From positions 1 through 41,229 of the forward strand of contig JAITWM010000125.1 of the NCBI GenBank assembly GCA_031285265.1: a stretch of 41,229 bases of DNA, read 5' to 3'. Positions 4,553 through 6,258 of this stretch are shown piece by piece (the first letter of the stretch is position 1; each line of letters begins with the position of its first letter). The position numbers were made by a program, and so were the translations under genes. The stretch is from Lysobacteraceae bacterium. GTDB lineage: Bacteria > Pseudomonadota > Gammaproteobacteria > Xanthomonadales > Xanthomonadaceae. The notes under the pieces are model-generated. The model did no database searches. It saw only the letters and a program-made list of their open reading frames with translations, and was not told the DNA's origin.

Positions 4553-6258
4553 TGTCCTCCCCTCTGGCGGCGCTCATACTCAAGCCGAAACTTGGCACGC
4601 AACAGTCCACCCGGATCATCTGGAACGCGCTGCAACCATGCTTCCTGCGCTTGTCGCTGTTCACGTTCTTCCCGAATTTCGGCACTTCGATCTTTATCGG
4701 ACGATGGGCGCTTTTCCTCTGTCTCTCCTTCCATCTCCGTCACCGCCTGCTGCATCTGCCGGCGTTGTTCTTCATCCGCGGCCCGTTGTTGTTCCGTATC
4801 CTCCGGCGCCAACTCCTGAGAGGAGGGCGTTCGATTATCGGCAGATGTTTGTTGCTGCTGCTGCTGCTGTTGCTGCTGCTGCTGTTGTTGCTGCTGTTGT
4901 TGCTGCTGCTGTTGCTGCTGTTGCTGTTGTTGCTGCTGTTGTTGTTGCTGCTGTTGCTGCTGCCGGCGCTTCGCCTCGATCACGACATCGCGATTATGAG
5001 TGACATCTTCCATATCCGGCTGTCGTTGCAGAGCGCGGTCATACGCGGCAATCGCATCGTCATACCGCCCCTGCCGCGCCAGTGCATTACCCAAGTTGTA
5101 ATAGCCAGCAGCATTGCCTATTTCTGAAAAAGCCCGTTCTGCCGTGGCATAGTCCCCGCCATGGTAGGCCTGCACGCCTTGCGATAAACGCTGCTGCTGA
5201 ATCTGATCCTGGCGTTGCCACCAATCCCCACGATCGGCCGCATGCGCTGGCATGGACAAAGGCAACAGCAGGACGATCAGCGGAATCGACAGCAAGCGCG
5301 AACCACGCCGAAACAATAACAGCGCCAACGGCAACAACAACAGTACCAGCCAATAACCCTCATCACGCCAAACCTTGCCTTGCGCATTGCCCAGAGATTG
5401 AGAATCATGCATTTGCGGCGTCAACACGCCCAATGCATCCAAATCCTGCCCGTCCATGCTCAACGTCGCGTAAGTTCCAGCGCCCGCGTTCGCCAAACGG
5501 TGCAGCGATCTTTCATCCAGCCGTGCCTGCCTGATTGCTCCTTGCCGGTTTTTGTATGCGCTGCCGGCATCGGTCCCCAAGCCGAGAACCAATATCCGGT
5601 ATCCACTCTGTGCTGCAGCACGCGCCGCAGCCAATGCATTGTCATCCGCATGATCGGTCAGCAACAAAATGTTGCCTTGCCTTGCTCCGGCCTGTTGTAA
5701 CAACCGTACGGACCAGTCGATCGCACGATCGGCACGCTGTCCGTCCACGGGCATGATGTCGGGTGACAGTGCATCGAGGAATAAAGCGATATTGGCCACA
5801 TCATCGGTCAATGGCGCTACAGTAAATGCGTCATCGGCCCATGCGACCAACCCTACCTGACCGTTTTGCCGTTCGCGCAACAGCGTCGCGATCTTCGTAC
5901 GTACCTGCAATATGCGTGATGGTTGCATGTCTGCGGCGGCGGTGGCGCTGGATAGATCGACCGCTATCACCAGAGGCATTTGCAGATGCCATAACGGTTG
6001 TTCGATCTGCCGCCAGCTCGGACCGGCCAGCGCCAGGATACCGGCGATATAGAACGAAGCCATTCCCAGCAAGGTCAGTCGCATCCTCCGTGAACCCGAC
6101 TCCGACAGGTGCGCCAGCAAATGCGTGTCCACCGCATGACGCCAGACATCCGCATGATGCCTGCGCAATTTCCATACGCCCCACAGCAACGGCAATATCA
6201 GCAACGCCCACAACCAAGCCGGCCGAAGAAAATGCACGGACAACAGCCAGCTATTCAT
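4549..6258 (-). CDS. VWA-TPR protein (BatB/BatC-type fusion) with polyglutamine tract
   Basis: A 569-residue inner-membrane protein. In order: two N-terminal hydrophobic helices, a VWA domain opening with VIAVDLSSATAAADMQPSR, two more hydrophobic segments (LVLLLLPLALLLF; IPLIVLLLPLSMPAHA), TPR-like repeats (GVQAYHGGDYATAERAF; YNLGNALARQGRYDDAIAAY), a run of 38 glutamines (residues 433-470) and a charged Glu/Arg-rich tail. This matches BatB plus BatC in one chain, as commonly found next to MoxR in Proteobacteria. The MIDAS motif reads D-L-S-S-A instead of DxSxS, so metal binding may be altered. I chose the ATG at 6258, which overlaps the upstream stop (ATGA), over one 18 bp earlier. The low-complexity stretch is very probably disordered; its role is unknown. 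Confidence 0.9.
   Translation of the reverse strand: MNSWLLSVHFLRPAWLWALLILPLLWGVWKLRRHHADVWRHAVDTHLLAHLSESGSRRMRLTLLGMASFYIAGILALAGPSWRQIEQPLWHLQMPLVIAVDLSSATAAADMQPSRILQVRTKIATLLRERQNGQVGLVAWADDAFTVAPLTDDVANIALFLDALSPDIMPVDGQRADRAIDWSVRLLQQAGARQGNILLLTDHADDNALAAARAAAQSGYRILVLGLGTDAGSAYKNRQGAIRQARLDERSLHRLANAGAGTYATLSMDGQDLDALGVLTPQMHDSQSLGNAQGKVWRDEGYWLVLLLLPLALLLFRRGSRLLSIPLIVLLLPLSMPAHAADRGDWWQRQDQIQQQRLSQGVQAYHGGDYATAERAFSEIGNAAGYYNLGNALARQGRYDDAIAAYDRALQRQPDMEDVTHNRDVVIEAKRRQQQQQQQQQQQQQQQQQQQQQQQQQQQQQQQQQQQQQQTSADNRTPSSQELAPEDTEQQRAADEEQRRQMQQAVTEMEGETEEKRPSSDKDRSAEIREEREQRQAQEAWLQRVPDDPGGLLRAKFRLEYERRQRGGQ
4849..4962 (-). repeat. CAG/CAA trinucleotide tract, 38 Gln codons
   Basis: On the minus strand 38 consecutive codons are CAG or CAA (I count 23 CAG and 15 CAA), uninterrupted by any other codon. 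They lie between Lys-Arg-Arg and Thr-Ser-Ala inside the VWA-TPR gene. Mixed CAG/CAA use argues for a maintained protein feature rather than a fresh pure-CAG expansion, yet such a tract can still change length by slippage in steps of one residue without breaking the frame. Confidence 0.97.

Follow-up and report, generated by a model that had tools for sequence, protein, structure and literature searches.

The window analysed here is a 41,229-nucleotide stretch of a Lysobacteraceae bacterium genome, and it carries on its minus strand an operon in the order moxR-DUF58-DUF4381-batA-batB/C-batD. Pfam identified a MoxR-type AAA+ ATPase (PF07726, positions 9111..10136), a DUF58 protein (7818..8726), a DUF4381 protein (7268..7723) and batD (PF13584, 2807..4552), and profile matches identified a batA-like VWA protein (6255..7271). 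Among these moxR, DUF58, batA and batD neighbours lies a gene for a 569-aa protein (4549..6258), whose ATG at 6258 overlaps the batA stop codon (ATGA). Its product contains a VWA domain (PF13519, E 5.1e-9; 5653..5973) and, after this domain and the last membrane segments, a TPR repeat (TPR_1, E 8e-11; 5014..5112), both matched by Pfam. A Q-rich, low-complexity linker of 113 aa (4639..4977), delimited by anchor measurement and modelled with low confidence in part, leads to a conserved C-terminal motif found by sequence comparison, WLxRVPDDPGGLLRAKFRLEYERR (4552..4638). The linker holds 38 glutamine codons without interruption, reading from 4962 to 4849 on the minus strand and corresponding to residues 433-470. 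A sequence-only reading had described 38 uninterrupted glutamines joining the TPR part to a charged tail in a VWA-TPR protein of a Bat cluster; the codon count at 4849-4962 confirms the number, the Pfam domains and bat-type neighbours bear out the host protein, and the position of the run stands.

We conclude that the 569-aa protein is a BatB/BatC fusion composed of VWA, TPR, linker and conserved C-terminal motif, because it combines VWA and TPR domains with bat-type neighbours and with the closest solved folds. A Foldseek search of the protein model recovered the BatB-type VWA fold, the top matches being 4jdu (2.1e-13), an aerotolerance protein of B. fragilis, and 3ibs (3.5e-13), BatB of B. 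thetaiotaomicron. The aerotolerance regulator N-terminal domain (PF07584) matched weakly (E 8.6e-4; 20.1 bits, below the cut-off of 25.9), and the Leptospira-named exception models among the NCBIfam BatA/BatB/BatC profiles matched at E 1e-13 to 2.8e-6, far below their cut-offs. A BatB/BatC fusion is reported in Leptospira biflexa, in which, according to the available passages of that report, bat deletion left growth and morphology unchanged and no protective role in oxidative stress was found (PMC3557215). The window protein resembles known bat operon BatB/BatC in its VWA and TPR domains, membrane segments and moxR-DUF58-batA-batD neighbours, and differs in adding the 38-Gln linker run and a C-terminal WLxRVPDDPGGLL motif outside the Pfam matches. 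This motif takes the form WLxRVPDDPGGLLRAKF in the window's family and LRKLEQVESARDPSRLLRAQ in Vibrio, and could be a new motif for interactions of BatB/C proteins. No Pfam match covers WLxRVPDDPGGLLRAKF or LEQVESARDPSRLLRAQ (window 4552-4638).

The MIDAS motif (window 5944-5958) reads DLSSA in place of DxSxS, the last Ser being changed to Ala, so that metal binding by the window BatB/C may be weakened; MIDAS deviations also occur in other bat-cluster members, for example at loci L041 and L129. A TPR-region gap unique to the window was ruled out, since that stretch is missing from most of the 29 proteins compared. A weak Pfam match to TFIIA over residues 416-548 (25.4 bits, cut-off 36.2) was read as a composition effect, and the same family also matched 22 of 90 polyglutamine frames. 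Elsewhere in the window, at 11480-11522, a second tandem repeat of ACCACCACT units lies within the open frame 10524-12533.

Hydropathy and charge suggest two N-terminal membrane segments, then a VWA domain on the periplasmic side, followed by a third hydrophobic segment, FRRG and a signal-peptide-like segment ending in AHA (5239..5346), apparently the joint of BatB and BatC. Most of the 29 proteins compared show a comparable FRR...AxA pattern. The third segment, FRRG and the signal-peptide-like AHA segment would make the TPR, linker and tail periplasmic, and the VWA domain of the Borrelia relative BB0173 is described as shown to be periplasmic in the part of that report available (PMC5700661). 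The predicted arrangement is thus a protein anchored in the inner membrane whose VWA, TPR, linker and tail are all periplasmic.

The AlphaFold model of the protein (mean pLDDT 73, pTM 0.42) draws the TPR helix and the polyglutamine as a single helix over residues 417-470, with 10-residue mean pLDDT values of 93-95 over residues 411-460; confidence is low at residues 474-484 and 486-527 of the linker. Read literally, the run would extend the last TPR helix into a stiff arm of defined length, and no flexible tether would be present. The 15 polyglutamine proteins of the input alignment are consistent with such an arm in having no Pro or Gly between the TPR helix and the start of the run. However, all of these sequences bear polyglutamine and the model built on them has a low pTM, and AlphaFold is prone to render polyglutamine as helix. 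In orthologues lacking long runs, PP or G often comes directly behind the helix, and the family runs at L297, L299 and L313 come after PP, so continuity of the helix is not general. We regard the stiff arm as the main structural rival to a flexible tether, and as a doubtful one. A pure glutamine run adjoining a helical segment is also known from eukaryotic polyglutamine proteins such as huntingtin; in contrast to these, the window's run is bacterial, predicted to be periplasmic and encoded by mixed CAA and CAG.

The tract (4849..4962, minus strand) consists of 23 CAG and 15 CAA codons in irregular order, as established by codon count and by repeat and lag analysis, and its longest pure stretch is five CAG. 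Six-codon CAR windows matched 33 times in the window and not once in 100 dinucleotide shuffles, which rules out a chance origin. The CAA fraction of the tract is 0.39 compared with 0.345 in 21 long open frames of the window (Fisher p 0.59). Codon order showed no significant excess of identity at lags 1-12 (max-lag p 0.86), and the longest self-repeat within the 114-bp tract measures 23 nt; counted in codons, the longest repeat is 7, comparable to shuffles. With a repeat covering 23 of 114 nt, the tract is not the near-pure tandem array of a VNTR or slippage locus. The random codon order and the lack of any internal repeat above 23 nt make it a poor slippage substrate, and trinucleotide slippage, proposed earlier as a means of varying the linker in frame, explains this tract poorly. 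Third positions depart from the majority codon at 15 of the 38 codons, and none of the 38 encodes another residue. Such synonymous change without residue change suggests that glutamine has been selected, although expansion of mixed units could also have introduced CAA and CAG together.

An artefact of this metagenome-like assembly is a further explanation to be considered, as the genome is in 229 contigs and incomplete, and contigs of relatives end inside the tract (G312, G338, G723, G802 and G712). We consider it very improbable here. Internal repeats of at most 23 nt make an assembly error at this tract unlikely, since any k above 23 gives a unique path through it; the frame is also intact on both sides, with conserved domains. 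Contigs ending inside BatB/C polyglutamine were seen at L297 and L298 (both G312), L315 and L395-L397, and because of such ends short-read databases probably under-count these runs. The rest of the genome (2.44 Mb, 229 contigs, 86.65% complete) yielded one other run of eight CAR codons, at G000:C229:28946-28969.

Homologues of BatB/C were found in 49 of 60 relatives. Thirty loci were retrieved, of which 29 had a usable open frame; the longest Q run among the 28 frames other than the window's is five. The linker was measured in 25 of these 28 orthologues, three being dropped because the anchor was missing. It spans 115-181 aa (mean 134.5) compared with 113 aa in the window, and its glutamine fraction averages 0.196 (range 0.086-0.352) against 0.425 in the window; upstream of the linker the mean fraction in the same 25 is 0.043. 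The run as added linker length is ruled out, because the window linker is shorter than every one of the 25 measured. The run has instead replaced mixed sequence in a Q-rich spacer, with no lengthening: the linker is the constant and the Q run the variable.

The linker sequence itself is highly variable among the 25 orthologues and runs come and go among relatives, as would be expected of a neutral microsatellite tolerated by a permissive linker, one that serves no function at a site free of selection. We find this unlikely, given that the window tract has altered many third positions, at background codon usage, and not a single residue. The confinement of linker length to a band also argues against neutrality, as does the Vibrio set described below, in which every detected run of 12 or more was assigned to BatB/C and none to other genes.

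The distribution of runs was followed at several depths. A Q run of four or more is absent from the only same-genus genome compared, so the run is not required genus-wide. In the window's family, BatB/C was found at E 1e-60 in 351 of 395 genomes, and 82 of the 395 contain at least 12 consecutive CAR codons with a base other than C after them. Of the 120 family tracts read, 111 lie outside BatB/C, which indicates that CAR repeats are common elsewhere in that family; the other nine, of 12 to 90 Gln, are in BatB/C of eight of the 395 genomes, in three genera (g1, g66 and g70), a count that leaves aside L311, whose 31-aa frame matched the tail weakly (E 0.0094). Class-wide, BatB/C matches were present in 88 of 274 genomes. 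Sequences were read at 82 of 92 places, leaving out the window gene, G011 and eight others, mostly fragments; four lacked the TPR, and none of the 78 with TPR has a tail run of eight or more Gln. Outside Vibrio, BatB/C runs are therefore sparse, and within the class as a whole long ones are exceptional.

Across 84,980 species genomes, a search for 30 CAR codons with a base other than C directly after them found at least 115 stretches of 30 or more such codons. Domains were counted with Pfam in 90 frames, after omission of 27 of 117 frames with fewer than 60 non-Gln residues. Among the stretches listed, a bat-type match was present at 38 of 115 loci; L051, L145 (a frame of 1598 aa with VWA and a weak TPR match) and L154 were dropped as weak, which leaves at least 35 of the 115 listed in bat clusters. 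L052, whose only bat-type match lies inside the frame of the tract, was counted on its own VWA and TPR. The 35 comprise, among the stretches listed, 18 full-length VWA and TPR frames and 17 shorter, cut or broken frames adjoining bat genes. By taxon, 17 are from Vibrionaceae and 18 from elsewhere, the latter including Desulfogranum, Zooshikella, Kistimonas and Thermomonas, and alphaproteobacterial, Omnitrophota, Delongbacteria and Bacteroidales assemblies. The rarity that the first reading attributed to such runs holds for bacteria overall, but the run is no lone curiosity, as BatB/C is a recurrent polyglutamine site.

The Vibrio set consisted of 118 genomes from the genus of V. coralliilyticus ATCC BAA-450, of which 114 contain BatB/C. 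Runs of at least 12 with a base other than C after them occur in 85 of the 118 genomes (87 tracts) and are absent in 29 of the 114 with BatB/C. All 87 detected tracts were assigned to BatB/C, 83 by coordinates: 70 lie inside the BatB/C match and 13 at most 474 bp downstream on the same strand. Eleven of the downstream tracts were read and share an open frame with the TPR; that in G692 follows stops inside the gene, and G730:C2 was assigned by coordinates. Of the remaining four, the tract in G740 overlaps the end of the match and three lie at contig ends in frames carrying the BatB/C tail. Among 67 readable tails, a set that includes plasmid-collection records, was picked partly for the presence of runs and is therefore not a frequency estimate, a run of at least 12 Gln is present in 56, of at least 20 in 45 and of at least 30 in 25; the frame in which L365 was read does not contain its tract, and five named loci had been removed because they were duplicated or fragmentary. 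The longest readable run, 125 Gln, is from V. campbellii LJC015. One Vibrio-genus genome has two BatB/C copies, L398 (G730:C1) and G730:C2, with a Gln run just past each match.

Among the stretches listed, 14 of the 18 full-length tracts with at least 30 Gln are near-perfect arrays, mostly of CAGCAA, in which the longest self-repeat covers no less than 0.89 of the length; irregular tracts resembling the window's are L052 and L129. There are thus two ways of making the run, hexamer slippage arrays and the irregular type of the window. The tract counts 44 Gln in Vibrio sp. THAF64 and THAF191c and 46 in THAF191d, within 9.3 kb that is otherwise identical; a sequencing error in one THAF record is a possible source of this difference. 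Slippage fits most Vibrio runs, given their hexamer arrays and this one-unit strain difference. In 56 Vibrio-set proteins with a C-terminal anchor, the linker grows by 0.33 aa per extra Gln, where a purely additive run would give 1. Linker length rises with the Q run (rho 0.29, p 0.03) and the rest of the linker declines (rho -0.47, p 3e-4), both without phylogeny correction among species that are phylogenetically non-independent. Linker length is therefore partly compensated for the Q run in the Vibrio set.

Two repeats already described in Vibrio bear on these arrays. The V. cholerae MLVA locus VCA0171 has the motif gctgtt (PMC6905556), occurred as 19 alleles in a single V. cholerae study (PMC3438101) and is reported to lie within the gene for a protein with a VWA domain (PMC11251456). 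As far as the available parts of these reports describe it, it resembles the BatB/C tracts in that its unit encodes Gln-Gln in one frame and varies among strains, and differs from the irregular window tract in being a hypervariable hexamer array. VCA0171 is probably the same tract in BatB/C, on a comparison with loci none of which is known to be from V. cholerae; the V. cholerae primers matched the fetched loci at best in 17 of 20 bases, at a locus outside the Vibrio set, which falls short of proving that VCA0171 is BatB/C. In V. alginolyticus, batB of the aerotolerance operon ends in 55 repeats of GCAACA, and an 18-bp loss in batB occurred in all eight phage-resistant derivatives; its authors classed the change as a frame shift and expected it to have no direct bearing on phage resistance (PMC8521149). 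The repeat at the end of batB is like the window's in position, and 18 bp is a multiple of three; its hexamers are regular where the window tract is irregular, and polyglutamine is not named in the available passages of that paper. Within one open-licence literature library, no link of Bat or VCA0171 with polyglutamine was recognised in titles or the starts of abstracts, and no paper combined VCA0171 with glutamine.

These variable loci would suit a length-tuning VNTR, in which in-frame slippage acts as a mutable dial on Bat activity. The THAF difference, the V. alginolyticus deletion and the VCA0171 alleles all point in this direction. Against it, the window tract has no period and no pure run above five codons, the THAF difference may be a sequencing error, and the available passages of the cited reports tie no phenotype to tract length. 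The 18-bp loss, being common to all eight derivatives in the account available, may also predate phage selection. We therefore hold a tuning dial to be rather unlikely.

The window tract, in our judgement, probably takes to a pure-glutamine extreme the Q-rich linker that BatB/C proteins share, which would serve as a length-constrained, glutamine-favouring periplasmic spacer or tether. This reading builds on the observed location of the run, its recurrence, the composition and length of the linker and the one-unit Vibrio difference; the topology, the tether role and selection are our inferences. The linker would keep the conserved C-terminal motif tethered at a more or less constant distance from the TPR, probably letting the motif meet another Bat subunit, and glutamine would be favoured, or tolerated, as an uncharged, soluble filler. 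On this view long Q runs are tolerated in the spacer and so arise repeatedly. Most Vibrio runs would have arisen by slippage of CAGCAA or CAGCAGCAA units, and the window run would be older or selected, its third positions randomised and all 38 residues still Gln. More speculatively, BatB/C could be the preferred home of bacterial polyglutamine, reached independently in several phyla, with the linker a glutamine spacer under selection, its length determining how far the motif extends within the Bat complex; VCA0171 alleles would then be functional and not neutral, and the window run fixed by selection and freed from slippage. We advance this fuller version only tentatively. The main interest lies in one bacterial linker that turns to polyglutamine again and again. 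Long polyglutamine has mostly been studied as a feature of eukaryotic disease, and BatB/C offers a tractable case of normal polyglutamine; the poorly understood Bat system gains a measurable variable, and a marker of cholera typing may gain meaning.

Among the stretches listed in the species-wide scan, very long CAR runs were also seen elsewhere, of 104 codons at L110, 157 at L132 and 199 at L082, and FtsK/SpoIIIE-type proteins account for three of the 90 longer polyglutamine frames.
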